The position numbers were made by a program, and so were the translations under genes. This document shows, piece by piece, positions 26,049-34,441 of a stretch of 64,000 bases of DNA. The number at the start of each line of letters is the position of its first letter. The first letter of the stretch is position 1. Source of the stretch: an uncultured Bacteroidota bacterium (lineage in GTDB: Bacteria > Bacteroidota > Bacteroidia > NS11-12g > UBA9320); NCBI GenBank assembly GCA_913043145.1, contig CAJWLP010000001.1, positions 1 to 64,000 of the forward strand, written 5' to 3'. Under the pieces are notes generated by a model. The model searched no databases. It had not been told where the DNA came from and saw only the letters and a program-made list of their open reading frames with translations.

Positions 26049-26498
26049 ATGAGTTTGTCACAACAGATTAACGACCAATTAAAGCAGGCAATGAAAGCAA
26101 AAGATCAAAGTACTCTGCGTGGTTTAAGAGCAATTAAAGCTTCATTACTATTACTTCAAACACAAGAAGGAGGAGGAGATGTTACTGAAAAAGATGAGAT
26201 GGAGGCCTTGGTCAAAATGGCTAAGCAACGGAAAGATTCTATTAAAATTTTTAATGACCAAGGTAGAACAGATTTGTCAAAAATAGAGGAAGAAGAATTA
26301 TCTGTGATTGAGAAATTTCTTCCAGCTCAGCTTACTAGTGTTCAGGTAGAAGCCGAAGTGAAATCTATCATCACTCAATTAGGTGCGAGCAGTATGAGGG
26401 ATATGGGGAAGGTTATGGGGATGGCAAACGGAAAACTTAAAGGGAAAGCTGATGGTAAATTAATCGCCGATATCGTCAAGGGGCTGTTAGCAGGATAA
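26049..26498 (+). CDS. yqeY: GatB/YqeY domain protein
   Basis: The 149-residue protein consists of the YqeY helical domain (QINDQLKQAMKAKDQSTLRGLRAIKASLLL) and a C-terminal part resembling the GatB tail (MGKVMGMANGKLKGKADGKLIADIVKGLLAG). It resembles the tRNA-binding tail of the amidotransferase subunit GatB, but stand-alone YqeY has no established enzyme activity. The 3' end overlaps the convergent glycosyltransferase by 12 nt. Confidence 0.9.
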   Translation: MSLSQQINDQLKQAMKAKDQSTLRGLRAIKASLLLLQTQEGGGDVTEKDEMEALVKMAKQRKDSIKIFNDQGRTDLSKIEEEELSVIEKFLPAQLTSVQVEAEVKSIITQLGASSMRDMGKVMGMANGKLKGKADGKLIADIVKGLLAG

Positions 26499-28400
26499 GA
26501 AAATCCTTAAGTCATTGTATACCGTGTAATTCTTTGCGTAAAGCAAGTCTAGATTTTTTTGGAATCCACTGTTTTTATCTTCAAGTTGGTAGTCTGTTGC
26601 AAAAACACCTGGCTTTATTGATGGAAGGTCATCACTATCACTAGCATATCCAACCCATGTTTTTTTCCCTAATAAAACATCGATGGAATAGCTTAATCTC
26701 AAGCGAGTTCTTTTGAAAAAGATCCAAAGAGGGCAGGAGGATATGAGCAGAAGAGCTAACAAAATGTCAAAAAATCTTTTTTGAGTTCGATATTCATTTT
26801 TGCTAAGATTGAGTTCAATTTGTTGGCCAAAATACAATCCATTGGAGTTTTTTGATTGACTTCCTATTACAAAACTACTTGCAGAAGGTATCGTATAGTA
26901 GTTTATACTGGGGCCTAATTCATTCATAATTTGAATGGTATATTTTGTACTTACGGTTTCGTTGCTAAAAATTAATTCATTAATCCCGTAAATATGGATA
27001 ATTTCTTTTAGTTGTTTCTTTGTACCTAACCATTGAGATGATTCGCTTTTTTTATCTGAAATAAAACCAACTTGCTGGTAATCCTTTTGATAGCTGCTAA
27101 GAATCTTTGATAATTCAATCCACTTTTTCTCACTTCCAATAAGTACACTTTTAATGTTTGATTTTTGTGAGAAGTCAAGCGTTTTGTATTTTAACAAATG
27201 ATATAGTGTTCTCCAAGAGAATAAAATGGCAGAAACAACAAGTGTCCCAAACAAAATAATTCCTCGGCTAAAATGCAAGTGGTTGGGGAGAAGACCATAT
27301 ATCATTAGAATAACCAATGTGCCAATTAGAATACTTCGAACTAATTTACTAAAGTTGAATGGGGCCTGATAAGACCCATTGAAAGCAATGCTAAAAACCC
27401 ATACTAGTGTGTAATAGGGGAGGTGAATTGTTAGCATTTCTTTAGGGTAAGATGTGATTCCTTTGATATGTTCTTCCCAATATTCTTTAAGTAAAAATAA
27501 GCTTAAAAATATAAGGATTGATTCAAGTGAGGCAAGCCAAAATCGTTGGATAAAAGTATTTATTAAACTGATGCTAGCTCGGCCATAAATGGCTAAGTTT
27601 ATAAATAGTTTGAATAGCTTTTGATTGCCTCCAGCATAGTGTTTTTCAGCAAAAATCACCATAGCCTTATAAAATATTTTAACGTAATTGGTACTGAGTT
27701 TTTTTGTACTTTCTCCTTTGTAGTGAATGATTCGAGAACCTGCAAAGTAGTAATTTTTCCAACCAGCTTTCGTGATGCGATAACTTAAGTCAATGTCCTC
27801 ACCGTACATAAAAAAAGTTTCGTCCAGAAGTCCAATTTTATCCAATACTTCCTTTCGGATAAGCATAAACGCCCCAGCTAAAATTTCGACTTCGTGATTT
27901 TGATTAGCAGGTAAATAACCGAGGTGATATTTCCCGAATTTCTTAGATTTTGGAAAAAGTTTATTTAATCCAACCATTTTATAAAAAGCTACTTCGGGTG
28001 AAGGTAATCCACGTTTACTTTCAGGGAGATAATTTCCTTGTCCGTCAAACATAGGTACGCCACAACCACCTAAATCAGGAGTTTGGTCAGCAAATTTTAT
28101 AATATTATCAAAACAATTCTCAGGAACAATGGTGTCTGGATTTAGAAGTAAAATATACTCCCCAATTGATTTTTTTATTGCTTGATTATTGGCTTTACTA
28201 AAGCCGGTATTCTTTGCATTAGAAATAAGATTAACCTCAGGAAATGAAGAACGAACCATCTCTTGAGACCCATCGACTGAGTTATTGTCAACTACGAATA
28301 TTTCTGCTTCAATGTTTTGAATAGCTTGATAAACAGATTTTAGACACTGTTCGAGGAAGTGCTTTACATTATAATTGACTATGACTATTGAAAGTTTCAA
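26487..28400 (-). CDS. Two-domain protein: GT2 glycosyltransferase plus reduced sugar-phosphate transferase-like domain
   Basis: The 637-residue protein begins at the TTG at 28400 (MKLSIVIVNYNVKHF); an upstream TTG at 28421 would contain the promoter. Residues 1-235 form a rhamnosyltransferase-like GT2 domain (FVVDNNSVDGSQ, LLLNPDTIVP, FFMYGEDIDLSYRITKAGW). Four to five helices follow, then a Rossmann-like part (SVLIGSEKKWIELSKILSS). The last 120 residues resemble a polyprenyl-phosphate sugar transferase: QKRFFDILLALLLISSCPLW, GKKTWVGY, IKPGVFATD and LDLLYAKNYTVYNDLRIFL match its start and end, but the central catalytic stretch is missing. Such fusions occur in Bacteroidota polysaccharide loci. 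Confidence 0.8.
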   Translation of the reverse strand: MKLSIVIVNYNVKHFLEQCLKSVYQAIQNIEAEIFVVDNNSVDGSQEMVRSSFPEVNLISNAKNTGFSKANNQAIKKSIGEYILLLNPDTIVPENCFDNIIKFADQTPDLGGCGVPMFDGQGNYLPESKRGLPSPEVAFYKMVGLNKLFPKSKKFGKYHLGYLPANQNHEVEILAGAFMLIRKEVLDKIGLLDETFFMYGEDIDLSYRITKAGWKNYYFAGSRIIHYKGESTKKLSTNYVKIFYKAMVIFAEKHYAGGNQKLFKLFINLAIYGRASISLINTFIQRFWLASLESILIFLSLFLLKEYWEEHIKGITSYPKEMLTIHLPYYTLVWVFSIAFNGSYQAPFNFSKLVRSILIGTLVILMIYGLLPNHLHFSRGIILFGTLVVSAILFSWRTLYHLLKYKTLDFSQKSNIKSVLIGSEKKWIELSKILSSYQKDYQQVGFISDKKSESSQWLGTKKQLKEIIHIYGINELIFSNETVSTKYTIQIMNELGPSINYYTIPSASSFVIGSQSKNSNGLYFGQQIELNLSKNEYRTQKRFFDILLALLLISSCPLWIFFKRTRLRLSYSIDVLLGKKTWVGYASDSDDLPSIKPGVFATDYQLEDKNSGFQKNLDLLYAKNYTVYNDLRIFLSC

Positions 28401-28410
28401 ACTGGTAGGG

Positions 28411-28418
28411 CAAACATA
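28411..28418 (-). promoter_or_regulatory. -7 element TATGTTTG upstream of the fused glycosyltransferase
   Basis: On the minus strand an exact TAnnTTTG ends ten nt before the TTG at 28400. It decides the start codon choice. Confidence 0.55.
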
Positions 28419-28505
28419 CAATATGAATATGGGTATTGAGCAGATGACTTTCGAGTAATTTCTGAATCAAGGTATTTTGTAGTGTAATTGTTTCATGGGG
28501 TTACC

Positions 28506-28523: not shown

Positions 28524-30515
28524 ATGAAATTTTTATTTCCTCAATTTCTGTGGGCTTTATTGCTTTTGATTATTCCTATAATTATTCATCTTTTTAATTT
28601 TAGGAGATACAAGAAAGTTGTCTTTAGTAATGTGACTATGCTAAAAGAAATTGAGACTCAAAGTCGCAAAACAAAGCAGCTTAGGAAATGGCTAATCTTG
28701 TTGACCAGAATAATTGCATTATCATCATTAATTTTAGCTTTTGCAATACCTTATATTCATAGTAAAGATAGTTTGTTCGGTCGCAAATTGATTAGTATTT
28801 ATATAGATAATTCTCAAAGTATGCTTGCTGAAGGGGAGAATGGTCAATTGTTTGAAGTTGCCAAAAACAAGGCACGCGAAATCATAAGAACTCTGCCAAA
28901 AAATTCAGAAATTCAAGTTATAGACAACGGTTTAAGCTTTTCAAGTAATAAAACTAATTCGTCATCCAATGCTTTGAGATTGATTGATAATATGGATATC
29001 GATCATAGACCCAACGATTTGTCCGGAGTCTTAAAAAAAATAGAATCTATGTTTAAATCCGATTCTTATGGGCATAACTATACATTTTTAATTAGCGATT
29101 TTCAGTCTCAAGAAAGAACAGATAATATAGCATTGGATAGCAATTATCATATTTATGCTTGTCCAGTATATCCAAATTTGTCACAGAATTTAGCTATTGA
29201 TTCTGTATGGTTAATCAAGCCAATTACACAATCATTTAAACCGATTGAGATGATGGCTCGCATTCATAATTATGGAAGAAAGGGCAATTTTTTATCCAAT
29301 CTCACACTAAAAATTAATGGTGTTCAACGTGTGGTCAAGAGTATAGATATACCTGAGAATTCATATAGAGATGTGCCATTGAGTTTTATTTATTCAGGTA
29401 CAGGTTGGTTAGGTGGTGAACTAACCGTTTCAGATGTACCCATTGATTTTGATAACTCTTATTATTTTTCAATATTGATTGATTCGTCGATTAAGGTTCT
29501 TCAGCTAGGAGAAGATTCAGATGAATTTTCAAGAATTTTTGATAGTGATTCTCTTTTTTATTTTTCTCATTCTGATTTAAATCAAATTGATTATTCTGGA
29601 TTGAATTTCTACGATTGTATTATACTTAACCAATTACCAAAAATGAGTTCTGGCTTAATCAGTCAACTTAAGAATTTTGTTGAAGATGGTGGAGTTTTAT
29701 CTGTTGTTCCGGGTGTTTCTAATAGTAGCTACACGGATTTTTTTAGTGAATTAGGAATTTCAAATTATCAAATCAAAGTGGACGATGAGATGGGTGTGTC
29801 TCCTTTAAGTATTTCTGGTGTTTTCTTAAAAGATGCCTACAAGCAAATTCCCAGTAATTTGCTTTTACCTAAGATCAAGACGTATTATCGTTTGAAATCA
29901 AACCCCCAGTCTGACAAAATAATATATCTGAAAGATGGTACTGAAATATTGACCAAAACAGATATAGGCTCTGGTTCAGTTTTTCAATCTACTGTTCCTT
30001 TTGATTCAAATTTCAATTACACATCTAGTGAATTGTTTGTTATTATACAACTAAAGATTGCTTTCAGTAAAAGAAAAACACAATCTATTGCCTCTGAAAT
30101 TAATTCGACAAATCCTGTTTATTTACCAAAATCATCGGGTTTGATTCACCTAAGAAAAGGAAATTCCGATATTGTGACAGAATCATATACTCATAGTTTA
30201 GGAAGTAGGTTTTGGTTAAATGATGCGATATCTGAGTCTGGTATTTATTCTGTTTTTGATTCAGAAGAATTACCCATAGCCAAATTAGCTTTTAATTACT
30301 CTAGAAAAGAGTCCCATCAGAATTATCTTGATGAAGTGAGAATTGATGAGGTTTTTGATAATACCCAATTTACAATGAATAAAAACAATATGGTATCACT
30401 TTTAAAATCTACTCAAGATTTGCAAAATAGAAGCCAGTTGTGGAAAGTCTTTATTTTAGTATGTTTGATATTTCTAATGATAGAGATACTTTTGTTAAGA
30501 TTTGTAAAATCATAG
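28524..30515 (+). CDS. BatA-domain/von Willebrand A-like membrane protein
   Basis: The 663-residue protein starts with the BatA N-terminal domain (MKFLFPQFLWALLLLIIPIIIHLFNFRRYKKVVFSNVTML), with a second helix at about 57-77. A VWA-like domain follows, with a MIDAS-type Asp-x-Ser-x-Ser (YIDNSQSML) near residue 92. One C-terminal helix (VFILVCLIFLMIEILLLRFV) ends the protein. The soluble part is periplasmic. Homologues are tied to the Bacteroides aerotolerance (Bat) family in name, but function is unproven. It leads a tight cluster with the dihydroorotase-like gene 13 nt downstream. Confidence 0.82.
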   Translation: MKFLFPQFLWALLLLIIPIIIHLFNFRRYKKVVFSNVTMLKEIETQSRKTKQLRKWLILLTRIIALSSLILAFAIPYIHSKDSLFGRKLISIYIDNSQSMLAEGENGQLFEVAKNKAREIIRTLPKNSEIQVIDNGLSFSSNKTNSSSNALRLIDNMDIDHRPNDLSGVLKKIESMFKSDSYGHNYTFLISDFQSQERTDNIALDSNYHIYACPVYPNLSQNLAIDSVWLIKPITQSFKPIEMMARIHNYGRKGNFLSNLTLKINGVQRVVKSIDIPENSYRDVPLSFIYSGTGWLGGELTVSDVPIDFDNSYYFSILIDSSIKVLQLGEDSDEFSRIFDSDSLFYFSHSDLNQIDYSGLNFYDCIILNQLPKMSSGLISQLKNFVEDGGVLSVVPGVSNSSYTDFFSELGISNYQIKVDDEMGVSPLSISGVFLKDAYKQIPSNLLLPKIKTYYRLKSNPQSDKIIYLKDGTEILTKTDIGSGSVFQSTVPFDSNFNYTSSELFVIIQLKIAFSKRKTQSIASEINSTNPVYLPKSSGLIHLRKGNSDIVTESYTHSLGSRFWLNDAISESGIYSVFDSEELPIAKLAFNYSRKESHQNYLDEVRIDEVFDNTQFTMNKNNMVSLLKSTQDLQNRSQLWKVFILVCLIFLMIEILLLRFVKS

Positions 30516-30528
30516 CTGCAGAGTGTCC

Positions 30529-31791
30529 ATGACATATATAATAAGACAAGCAACATTAATTCAAAAAGAAAACTCCTCTCATAATTCTAGAGTAGATCTA
30601 TTAATAAGTGATGGTAAAATTGAAAAAATAGCGAATAATATTTCTGAGAGTAATGCTGAGGAAATTGTCGGGGATGATTTGTGTGTAAGCTCAGGTTGGA
30701 TTGATATGAGGGCCGGACTTACTGATCCTGGTTATGAACACAAAGATACCCTGAATAATATCCTTGATACAGCAGCATTTAGTGGGTTTACTTCCATAGT
30801 TACTCTTCCTAGTACTACTCCTAAAATTGCAGATAAAGCTTCTGTTTCATATTTGATTAATGCTTCTAAGAATCACCTAGTAAATATTCTACCGACTGGT
30901 ATAATTGAAGATCCAAATAGCAAGGGTGATCTTGCTGAAATGTATGATATGTATGAGTCTGGAGCAGTAGCATTCACCAATGGAGATGATGAGGTCTCTA
31001 ACGGACTTCTTAAAAAAGCATTATTGTATACTAAACCATTCGATGGGATAATAATTTCACATCCTTCCGACAAGTCATTAGAACACGGAGGAGTAGTTCA
31101 TGAGAGTAGCATGATGGTTGCTACAGGACTAAAAATGTCGCCGTCAATTGCAGAATATGTTAGTTTGAACCAACAATTAGAGGTTGCTAAATATTGTGAT
31201 ACTCCAATACATTTTTCGTGCATATCTACTGCAAAATCAGTTGAAATAATAAGAGATGCAAAAAAATCTGGGCAGCAGGTAACTTCTGATGTTTCAATCT
31301 TAAACTTGTGTTTTACTGAAAAAGAATTACTCCAATTTGATGAAAATTTCAAGGTATATCCACCATTACGATCAGAGTTTGACCGAAGGGCTTTGATCCA
31401 AGGTATTGTTGATGGTACGATTGACGCAATTTCAAGTAATCACAGTCCTCAGAACATTGAGGGAAAGGCTGTGGAGTTTGATTATGCCGAATCAGGTGCT
31501 TTGAGTCAGCAGTTTATGTTTAGTTGGTATGAGAAGTACTTAGCAAAAGATATACCAATGGATATTTTTGTGAAATCGTTAACTCATGGGCCAAACGATA
31601 TACTTGGCAAAAAAAATACAAATATTGAAGAGGGAGTCATGGCTAACTTAACTATATTCGATTTAAATAGAAAGTGGCAACTCAGCCAATCTAACAATAC
31701 TTCTAAATCCTCAAATACTCACGAGTGGGAGAAAGAACAAAAAGGCAAGGTTGTGGGGCTATTTAACAATAACTGCGTAAAATTGTATTAA
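30529..31791 (+). CDS. Dihydroorotase-like protein lacking catalytic residues
   Basis: The 420-residue protein has the amidohydrolase fold of type I dihydroorotase (SSGWIDMRAGLTDPGYEHKDT, IIISHPSDKSLEHGGVVHE, VYPPLRSEFDRRALI). The metal-binding His-x-His of the DxHxH motif is replaced by Arg61-Ala-Gly63. The HxxHxST region reads HFSCIST, the HH pair reads LN (SILNLCF), and the catalytic DHAPH reads NHSPQ. It therefore cannot act as a normal dihydroorotase and resembles the inactive PyrC' type. I use the ATG at 30529; a GTG lies at 30523. DUF4199 follows at 9 nt. Confidence 0.82.
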   Translation: MTYIIRQATLIQKENSSHNSRVDLLISDGKIEKIANNISESNAEEIVGDDLCVSSGWIDMRAGLTDPGYEHKDTLNNILDTAAFSGFTSIVTLPSTTPKIADKASVSYLINASKNHLVNILPTGIIEDPNSKGDLAEMYDMYESGAVAFTNGDDEVSNGLLKKALLYTKPFDGIIISHPSDKSLEHGGVVHESSMMVATGLKMSPSIAEYVSLNQQLEVAKYCDTPIHFSCISTAKSVEIIRDAKKSGQQVTSDVSILNLCFTEKELLQFDENFKVYPPLRSEFDRRALIQGIVDGTIDAISSNHSPQNIEGKAVEFDYAESGALSQQFMFSWYEKYLAKDIPMDIFVKSLTHGPNDILGKKNTNIEEGVMANLTIFDLNRKWQLSQSNNTSKSSNTHEWEKEQKGKVVGLFNNNCVKLY

Positions 31792-31799
31792 ATATTATT

Positions 31800-32354
31800 A
31801 TGATAAATTTATATAAACCATCGATTGATCAAGGTGTTAAAATGGGGATTATCTCCGTTGTAGTTTTTCTTGGGATTTATGCTTTTGATCCAATGTTTTT
31901 TGGTAAGCCAACAGGAATGTTAACTCTACTAGTGGTTAACCTACTAGCTATACCTATTGTATTTATGATTTTGGGTGCTAGAAATACAAAAGCAAATTTC
32001 ACACCGTATTCATTTGGCAATGCATTTAACGCTGCTTTTTTTACAGCAATTGTTTCAGCTTTAATTGTATTGGTCTTTAATGTTATCTTTTTATCGTTGA
32101 TTGACCCAACATGGGAGCAATCAATATTCGAAGAAACGATGAATACAACAGAGTCTTTTATGTCTAATGCAGGGGCATCACAAGATGACATTGATGAGGC
32201 AATGGAAAAAGCAAATGAAGCATATGCTGATCAGCCAAAAGGGGTTTTAGGAGCAATTATCAATACAGGTAAAGGGTTAGTTTGGTATTTAATCCTTGCA
32301 CTTATTATAGGAGCAGTTCAAAAAGATAAAAAGACCGAAGAAGAGCTCGTTTAG
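31800..32354 (+). CDS. DUF4199 membrane protein
   Basis: The 184-residue protein has four predicted helices: about 12-32, 36-56, 75-97 and 158-178. A short amphipathic acidic loop lies between the third and fourth (EQSIFEETMNTTESFMSNAGASQDDIDEAMEKANE). It matches the Bacteroidota family DUF4199, whose function is unknown. It sits between the dihydroorotase-like gene and a GT2 gene, with intergenic gaps of 8 nt and 1 nt, so the cluster is one transcript. Confidence 0.82.
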   Translation: MINLYKPSIDQGVKMGIISVVVFLGIYAFDPMFFGKPTGMLTLLVVNLLAIPIVFMILGARNTKANFTPYSFGNAFNAAFFTAIVSALIVLVFNVIFLSLIDPTWEQSIFEETMNTTESFMSNAGASQDDIDEAMEKANEAYADQPKGVLGAIINTGKGLVWYLILALIIGAVQKDKKTEEELV

Positions 32355-32355
32355 T

Positions 32356-33312
32356 TTGAATCTATCTGTAGTCATACCTTTACTCAATGAAGCAGAATCT
32401 TTGCCAGAATTGCATGCTTGGATAAAACGTGTGTTGGATCAAGAAAAGTTATCCTATGAAATTATTTTCATTGATGATGGATCAACAGATGATTCATGGA
32501 GAATTATACAAGATTTAAAGTCTAAACATTCAGAGATTAAAGCTCTTAAATTTAGAAGAAACTACGGAAAATCTGCGGCATTAAACAAGGGCTTCGCTCT
32601 TGCAAAAGGAGATAGTGTTTTCACAATGGATGCGGACCTTCAAGATAGTCCAGACGAACTCCCGATCATCCATTCTATGCTTTGGAATGATAACTATGAT
32701 CTTATTAGTGGTTGGAAAAAGAAGAGGTATGACCCTATTACTAAAACGATACCAACAAAACTTTATAATTGGGCCACTAGGAAAATGAGTGGTATATATC
32801 TCCATGACTTTAATTGTGGTTTAAAAGCATATAAGAATGAGGTTGTAAAGAGTATCGAAGTATATGGAGAGATGCATAGATATATACCAGTAATGGCTCA
32901 TCGAGCAGGGTATAAAAGGATTGGTGAGAAGGTGGTTGCTCATCAGTCTAGAAAATATGGTGAAACCAAGTTTGGTCTAAGTAGATTTATACGCGGTCCT
33001 CTAGACTTGTTAAGTATCATATTTGTTTCTAAATTCGGAAAAAGACCCATGCACTTTTTTGGTTTTGGAGGAGCTCTAGCTTTTTTATTAGGATTTTTTC
33101 TTACAGTATATGTGCTTGTAGACAAATTAATTGCAATAAGCTATGGTGTGCGTCAATCTTTAGTTACGGATAATCCACTGTTTTATATTGCTTTGGTAAT
33201 GTTAATTATTGGGACTCAACTTTTTATGGGCGGATTTTTAGCCGAAATGCTCAGTAGAAATGCACCCAATCGAAATAAATATGAGATATCAGAACGATTA
33301 GGTTTTGAGTAA
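32356..33312 (+). CDS. GT2 polyprenyl-phosphate glycosyltransferase (GtrB/DPM1-like)
   Basis: The 318-residue protein starts at a TTG one nt after the DUF4199 stop (MNLSVVIPLLNEAESLPELH). The GT2 domain shows IIFIDDGSTDDSW, a DxD-type FTMDADLQDSPDE, and FNCGLKAYKNEVV. Two C-terminal helices (FGFGGALAFLLGFFLTVYVL and FYIALVMLIIGTQLFMGGFL) mark it as the kind that loads a sugar on polyprenyl phosphate at the inner face of the membrane. It overlaps the next glycosyltransferase gene by 8 nt. Confidence 0.88.
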   Translation: MNLSVVIPLLNEAESLPELHAWIKRVLDQEKLSYEIIFIDDGSTDDSWRIIQDLKSKHSEIKALKFRRNYGKSAALNKGFALAKGDSVFTMDADLQDSPDELPIIHSMLWNDNYDLISGWKKKRYDPITKTIPTKLYNWATRKMSGIYLHDFNCGLKAYKNEVVKSIEVYGEMHRYIPVMAHRAGYKRIGEKVVAHQSRKYGETKFGLSRFIRGPLDLLSIIFVSKFGKRPMHFFGFGGALAFLLGFFLTVYVLVDKLIAISYGVRQSLVTDNPLFYIALVMLIIGTQLFMGGFLAEMLSRNAPNRNKYEISERLGFE

Positions 33313-34441
33313 GCAAATCACCATAATTGGTCCTGCTTATCCACTAAGGGGTGGATTATCATCCTATAATGAACTGCTTGCTTCAAAACTACAAAAGCAA
33401 GGTCATCAGGTAAAAATAATCACATTTAGTCTGCAATATCCTGATTTTCTATTTCCAGGAAAAACTCAATATTCTAATTCTTTACCTCCAGACAATTTAG
33501 AAATAGAGGTTAGTTTAAACTCTGTAAACCCCCTAAATTGGATTCTTCTCGGTAGAAAAATTAAAAACGAAAAGCCTGATTTGGTAATTTTTAGATTTTG
33601 GATGCCGTATATGGGACCAAGTCTTGGGACTTTGGGTCGAATTATTCGCAGAAATAAACATACTAAAATAGTTGCTATAACAGATAATATTATTCCTCAC
33701 GAAAAAAGGTTTGGAGATCGATTACTGACCTCTTATTTTCTGAAATCATGTAACGCATTATTAACCATGAGTAAGTCGGTTTTAAATGATTTAAAATCAT
33801 TTGATATTTCTATACCAGCAGTTTTTAATCCTCATCCGATGTATGAAAATTTTGGGGAACATATCAATAAATTTAAGGCTAGAAAAAAACTAGGATTGGA
33901 TAAAGATGTGGATTATGTTTTATTCTTTGGATTTATCAGAAAGTATAAAGGGTTAGACACCCTACTAAAAGCTTTTTCAGACCAACGGTTGAAAGATAAA
34001 GAACTCAAGCTAATCATTGCAGGTGAATACTATGATAGTCCTCAAGCCTATCAAAAAATAATTGATGATTTAGAATTAAAAGATCATATTATTCATGCAA
34101 ATCATTACATCGAAGATTCAGAAGTAAGTTTATATTTTAGTGCTGCTGACTTGGTGGCACAGACTTATAAAACAGCAACGCAAAGTGGAGTTACTCAAAT
34201 TGCTTACTATTACAACACACCTATGCTTGTGACAGATGTTGGAGGACTAGCTGAATTAGTGCCACATCAGAAAGTAGGTTATGTCACATCACAAAATTCT
34301 AGAGAAATATCAGATTATATTTTTGATTTTTATGAGAATGATAGATTATCTGAATTTTCTAAAAATATAGAATCAGAACGAAACAAATTTACGTGGGAAA
34401 GTCTAATCGATAACCTATTCAAAGTTTCAGGATTGAACTAG
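33305..34441 (+). CDS. GT4-family glycosyltransferase
   Basis: The 378-residue protein starts at a TTG within the end of the preceding gene (MSKQITIIGPAYPLRGGLSSYN). It is a GT-B fold retaining enzyme: an N-terminal Rossmann half with GGLSSY, and a C-terminal donor-binding half with VLFFGFIRKYKGLDTLLKAF, ADLVAQTYKTATQSGVTQ and DVGGLAELV. It likely adds a sugar to a cell-surface glycan. Its stop shares bases with the stop of the convergent lipoprotein gene (CTAG at 34438-34441). Confidence 0.88.
   Translation: MSKQITIIGPAYPLRGGLSSYNELLASKLQKQGHQVKIITFSLQYPDFLFPGKTQYSNSLPPDNLEIEVSLNSVNPLNWILLGRKIKNEKPDLVIFRFWMPYMGPSLGTLGRIIRRNKHTKIVAITDNIIPHEKRFGDRLLTSYFLKSCNALLTMSKSVLNDLKSFDISIPAVFNPHPMYENFGEHINKFKARKKLGLDKDVDYVLFFGFIRKYKGLDTLLKAFSDQRLKDKELKLIIAGEYYDSPQAYQKIIDDLELKDHIIHANHYIEDSEVSLYFSAADLVAQTYKTATQSGVTQIAYYYNTPMLVTDVGGLAELVPHQKVGYVTSQNSREISDYIFDFYENDRLSEFSKNIESERNKFTWESLIDNLFKVSGLN

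Follow-up and report, generated by a model that had tools for sequence, protein, structure and literature searches.

In the known class A complexes of aspartate transcarbamoylase (ATCase), two PyrB trimers are held together by three dihydroorotase (DHO) dimers (PMC7053772). The DHO chain of Pseudomonas aeruginosa is catalytically dead, and the PyrB of this species is monomeric and inactive when that chain is missing (PMC7053772). In class B ATCases, the bridge between two PyrB trimers is made up of PyrI dimers (PMC7053772). Dead DHO domains are also found in fungi, where the Ura2 pseudo-DHO lies within the ATCase polypeptide (PMC7053772, PMC4581275). Pseudo-dihydroorotases as ATCase subunits are already known, and we found no description of such a protein (PyrC') from Bacteroidota in the open-access literature. 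What appears to be new, judged from genome comparison, is the fixation of PyrC' throughout a class, its separation from pyrB, and comparative evidence for its exchange with PyrI.

The PyrC' described here, from an uncultured Bacteroidota bacterium, resembles the class A2 PyrC' of P. putida, P. fluorescens, and P. aeruginosa (PMC7053772), as it is a type-I homologue that has lost the zinc ligands, retains the full fold, and occurs without PyrI. The proposed role, holding the ATCase together, is also the same; complex formation is proven in Pseudomonas, whereas for Bacteroidia we infer it. Furthermore, the erosion of the active site varies between lineages of Bacteroidia, unlike in the Pseudomonas class A2 proteins. 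The Pseudomonas PyrC' gene lies with pyrB, unlike the Bacteroidia gene, which is located in a BatA operon away from pyrB; in the source genome, pyrB is paired with pyrR. The Aquifex aeolicus class A1 ATCase-DHOase (3d6n, 4bjh) ranks among the closest matches of PyrC' in both sequence and fold, but within that complex the DHO retains its activity. PyrI fills the niche proposed for PyrC', that of a dimeric bridge between PyrB trimers, and the two proteins are mutually exclusive in the class sample, although PyrI has an unrelated fold and acts as an allosteric regulator. The fungal pseudo-DHO is a fused domain, unlike the free PyrC' subunit.

Gene and operon

The window, the whole stretch of 64,000 nucleotides that was analyzed, is part of a 1.70 Mb genome that is about 80% complete (G000). 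The following genes form a run in it, apart from pyrR-pyrB:

28524..30515, + strand: BatA-like membrane vWA protein (PF07584, TIGR02226), immediately 5' of PyrC' (conserved neighbour)
30529..31791, + strand: PyrC', a catalytically dead type-I dihydroorotase homologue by profile match, alignment, and AlphaFold model; 420 aa, ATG start
31800..32354, + strand: DUF4199 membrane protein (PF13858), the following operon gene
32356..33312, + strand: GT2 glycosyltransferase, the operon gene after DUF4199
33305..34441, + strand: GT4 glycosyltransferase, the final gene of the run, overlapping the preceding gene

The PyrC' reading frame starts 13 bp after the BatA-like gene, and its stop lies 8 bp ahead of the DUF4199 gene. 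The ATG at 30529 is the likelier start, with an in-frame GTG at 30523 as a possible one, and the stop ends at 31791.

On the opposite strand, at 26487-28421, a fusion protein combines a GT2 glycosyltransferase with the N-terminal half of a polyprenyl glycosylphosphotransferase; of the 445 positions of TIGR03025, only 4-271 are matched. The catalytic sugar-transferase part looks degenerate, so that here, too, an enzyme domain seems to lack its catalytic end.

Lost residues and preserved fold

Profile, sequence, and structure matches indicate that PyrC' is homologous to type-I dihydroorotases from end to end. More specifically, TIGR00857 matches over the full length (8e-78, 262 bits), narrowly missing its curated threshold of 279. 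Among solved structures, A. aeolicus dihydroorotase entries are closest in sequence (5e-61). PyrC' proteins in general score around the cut-off of the dihydroorotase model in profile searches, which would explain why they are named dihydroorotase. The single-chain AlphaFold model (pLDDT 92.5, pTM 0.92) has among its best PDB matches the DHO chains from the DHO-ATC complex of A. aeolicus, on which it superimposes with TM-scores of 0.92-0.93, in agreement with the preserved fold that had been proposed from the sequence.

Alignment with active PyrC from the outgroup, using A. aeolicus dihydroorotase numbering, reveals the substitutions H61R, H63G, R65T, N95S, D153G, H232C, D305N, and H309Q, while H180 is retained. 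None of the six key residues (H61, H63, R65, N95, D153, D305) remains in the source-genome PyrC'. The altered motifs listed in the preliminary description are all present in the reading frame, within DMRAG, SILNLCF, HFSCIST, and SNHSPQ, and the aligned segments are as follows:

30703..30720, + strand: DMRAGL in place of DMHVHL; metal ligands H61 and H63 are gone, and R65, the next codon, is T
30970..30990, + strand: AFTNGDD in place of AFTDDG; D153 is gone
31210..31230, + strand: HFSCIST in place of HVAHIST; H232 is gone, H229 is retained
31354..31374, + strand: VYPPLRS; the first Pro and the Arg of PPLR are invariant in 71/71 class members despite the lost active site
31435..31455, + strand: SNHSPQN in place of TDHAPH; D305 and H309 are gone, H306 is invariant

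On these substitutions, PyrC' probably no longer cyclises carbamoyl-aspartate.

Class-wide fixation and selection

Orthologues of PyrC' were detected in 104 of the 108 genomes of the source order and in ~170 of the 197 sampled genomes of the class (E <= 1e-30). Among the carriers with a species name are Flavobacterium cheniae and Spirosoma telluris; those among metagenome-assembled genomes (MAGs) include Fluviicola, Algoriphagus, Arcicella, Saprospiraceae, and Cyclobacteriaceae. Of the six key residues, each of the 71 class members inspected keeps between zero and four, so that the loss is fixed throughout the class. All 30 outgroup PyrC, taken from other classes of the same phylum, retain all six. 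The substitutes differ between lineages, with R/Q/H/G/K/F/S/N at H61 and N/H/S/F/G/V/T/Q/R at H63. H306 is invariant in all 71 proteins, as are the two PPLR residues, and H229 is kept in 70.

Mean entropy in PyrC' amounts to 2.53 bits at the catalytic positions versus 0.79 bits at 57 other outgroup-invariant columns (p = 7e-5). Comparisons of close relatives give a dN/dS of ~0.08-0.12. Taken together, the active site has therefore been released from constraint while the remaining protein is conserved. Since the same sites are eroded in 71/71 class members and other outgroup-invariant columns are kept, the loss of the motifs is not due to chance. The purifying selection indicated by a dN/dS of ~0.1 bears out the earlier suggestion that the gene is under selection. 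It also leads us to reject the reading of PyrC' as a decaying pseudogene, which has practically no probability left: the loss of catalytic residues would fit decay, but frames are full-length class-wide and the 57 columns are largely kept.

Pathway genes elsewhere in the genome

A search of the source genome for an intact dihydroorotase and for PyrB retrieved both. The dihydroorotase belongs to another family (PRK09236 type, C8:29776-31107, above cut-off) and carries the motifs THCED, HILHIST, and TDHAPHT; in the class as a whole, this type scores above cut-off in 180/197 genomes. The pyrB gene (C2:62078-62971) directly follows a gene with a phosphoribosyltransferase domain of PyrR type, and the second-best PDB match of its product is the A. 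aeolicus ATC. A match to PyrI was not found in this genome, of which about 80% is covered.

The preliminary description had placed the gene in an envelope cluster without pyrB, which holds at the locus, while the genome as a whole has pyrR-pyrB on C2. The hint of a role outside ATCase that it drew from the missing local pyrB is not sustained: pyrB is present in the genome, and across the 197 genomes the presence of PyrC' follows the type of ATCase.

The PRK09236-type protein (L001) reads DDQVHFREPG, in which Gln replaces the first of the two histidines of HxH, the metal motif. Despite this Gln, it appears by sequence to be the sole functional dihydroorotase found in the source genome.

Co-occurrence with the type of ATCase

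All nine PyrI-bearing genomes among the 197 lack PyrC' (Fisher p = 5e-9, a test that ignores phylogeny). A tree of 129 PyrB sequences places 92 in the native Bacteroidia clade, 82 of them from genomes with PyrC', while PyrC' occurs in 0/13 genomes with a replaced PyrB (the nine PyrBI genomes, G326, G012/G094, and G071). These correlations share phylogeny and comprise few (~4-6) independent partner swaps. Five of the six genomes in which ATCase was not detected also lack PyrC'.

The most telling comparison for a partner swap, as far as gene content can indicate one, comes from a single small order. Family f81 lacks PyrC' altogether. In three of its genomes (G376, G411, G356), the order BatA-DUF4199-GT2 is kept and PyrC' is missing between BatA and DUF4199; two of them (G356 and G376) have adjacent pyrB-pyrI. 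The sister families f62, f76, and f78, in contrast, possess PyrC' and no PyrI. Further cases are less uniform. G367 combines PyrC' and a native PyrB with a second, PyrI-type PyrB copy (L094/L308), and PyrI was not detected there. The sole PyrB of G326 (L102/L309) is of PyrI type, with neither PyrI detected nor PyrC' present. G071 (L184/L196) has a divergent, apparently acquired pyrB-pyrC pair in which PyrC keeps all catalytic residues, and no PyrC'; in its congener G385, ATCase was not detected.

A native-clade PyrB without PyrC' occurs in ten genomes from two lineages only, f56 g128 and f68 with f75. The partner can therefore be lost without such a replacement. The PyrBs of f68, f75, and f56 g128 (L190, L193-L195, L197-L202) are mostly more divergent.

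In PyrB itself, one of 116 conserved columns tracks PyrC' (0.08 expected), namely R239 in the numbering of the L034 protein. This Arg is kept in 81/82 PyrBs from PyrC'-bearing genomes, in 22/23 outgroup PyrBs from pyrBC operons, and in the A1-type PyrB of G071, and it is lost in all five lineages without PyrC'. R239 may be a candidate contact residue, in an exploratory sense only; as a PyrB signature of the PyrC' partnership it was set aside, as the A. aeolicus ATC has Ser at this position.

Origin of PyrC'

In 23 of 30 outgroup loci within the phylum, pyrB lies directly upstream of an active PyrC. The PyrC' clade is sister to these outgroup PyrCs (node 0.996), with a support of 0.46 for its own monophyly in one tree, and the PyrBs from PyrC'-bearing genomes are likewise sister to the outgroup operon PyrBs. 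The likely history starts from a pyrBC pair. After a second dihydroorotase had taken over, its PyrC would have become non-catalytic, and it would have parted from pyrB.

A probable structural role in ATCase and its alternatives

PyrC' is likely a non-catalytic structural subunit that assembles or stabilizes PyrB, by analogy with the Pseudomonas class A2 PyrC'. This role fits because PyrC' and PyrI exclude each other, PyrC' co-occurs with native PyrB, and it is akin to the PyrC of pyrBC pairs. The features of class A2 PyrC' found here are full-length type-I homology, lost ligands, a separate dihydroorotase, and PyrB without PyrI; adjacency to pyrB, which is usual but not required for the complex, is missing. 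An active PyrC would show HxH, D153, D305, and R65/N95, of which 0/6 are present here and <=4/6 in any of the 71 proteins, while PyrI, the mark of a class B ATCase, is absent from the source genome and present in 9/197 class genomes. PyrC' would work like a class A2 PyrC', and it has every class A2 sequence feature tested except pyrB linkage.

In the proposed mechanism, PyrC' dimers would link PyrB trimers to form a dodecamer resembling that of class A2 and would stabilize the active PyrB trimer, with ATCase activity depending on PyrC'. PyrC' and PyrI would fill an exchangeable scaffold role for PyrB, and the BatA-PyrC' operon would reflect shared expression rather than a functional partnership. 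We infer both the physical binding of PyrC' to PyrB and its stoichiometry. Counting against a scaffold for PyrB are the position of PyrC', which lies beside pyrB in 0/58 class loci, the ten genomes with native-clade PyrB and no PyrC', and the loss of BatA, which also correlates with the loss of PyrC', with exceptions both ways.

The main rival is a functional link to BatA, in which PyrC' would have no connection with ATCase and would take part in envelope assembly as a cytosolic partner of BatA or, alternatively, of the DUF4199/GT2 module; we regard it as rather unlikely. BatA lies directly upstream in 45/58 PyrC' loci across the class, so that the link is old, and the two genes, 13 bp apart in the source genome, are co-transcribed by appearance. 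Moreover, PyrC' is absent from 9/15 genomes without BatA versus 18/182 others (p = 1e-5). The envelope neighborhood pointed out in the preliminary description is hence real and old, but BatA and PyrC' also occur separately. BatA is kept in G326, G356, G376, G411, G284, G313, G385, G275, G331, and f68, all without PyrC', while G002, G032, G090, and G110 have PyrC' without BatA, and f81 retains the BatA-DUF4199-GT2 operon with PyrC' missing. The exclusion between PyrC' and PyrI has no exception, whereas the correlation with BatA is less strong and is broken both ways; the conserved adjacency may reflect co-regulation only. As each occurs without the other and the site in f81 is empty, BatA was not our first choice as an obligate partner.

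With a smaller probability, PyrC' retains another function of its barrel, for example as a metal-free hydrolase or as a sensor binding nucleotides or carbamoyl-aspartate. The pocket does survive in part despite the loss of the metal site: PPLR and H306 are invariant, and H229 is almost invariant. The substitutes at the ligand positions vary by lineage, however, and this variation at H61 and H63 suggests release from constraint, not a new conserved active site. Slightly less probable again is that PyrC' binds both PyrB and BatA, tethering ATCase at the membrane or tuning it to envelope polysaccharide synthesis. It is highly improbable that PyrC' still acts as a dihydroorotase by means of an unusual metal site. 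H180 and H232 alone are dispensable, as the H180A/H232A mutant of the A. aeolicus enzyme retains activity (PMC3880350), but the source-genome PyrC' has lost the zinc-alpha ligands H61, H63, and D153 together with D305, and a complete second dihydroorotase family is present in nearly all genomes.

If PyrC' is an ATCase scaffold, the first committed enzyme of pyrimidine synthesis would depend, in most of the class (Flavobacterium, Spirosoma, Cytophagaceae, Saprospiraceae, and others), on a pseudoenzyme that is unlinked from pyrB and matches the models for dihydroorotase. The functions assigned in databases and metabolic models would be corrected, PyrC' and PyrI would exemplify how one ATCase scaffold is exchanged for an unrelated one, and the reason for the long retention of a dead enzyme would become testable.

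Inactive PyrC' proteins in other bacteria

In a wider set, inactive PyrC' proteins were found beside pyrB, mostly in Alphaproteobacteria, and they often share H61R and D153G with the Bacteroidia proteins. Such proteins (L350, L354, L357, L379, L390, L392-L394; also L342, L348, L375, L386) show similar substitutions, namely H61R and D153G and often H309Q. Unlike the Bacteroidia PyrC', those of Alphaproteobacteria and others all lie with pyrB. The nodes that join the Bacteroidia and proteobacterial PyrC' are weak in the wider tree, which is compatible with a single origin as well as with separate ones.

PyrC that lie beside PyrB and have lost metal ligands or residues for substrate binding were also observed in one MAG each of Acidobacteria, Verrucomicrobia, Bacillota, and Methylophilaceae and in another proteobacterial MAG (L342, L348, L375, L382, L386). 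Class A2-like arrangements may be more widely spread than the Pseudomonas case suggests.
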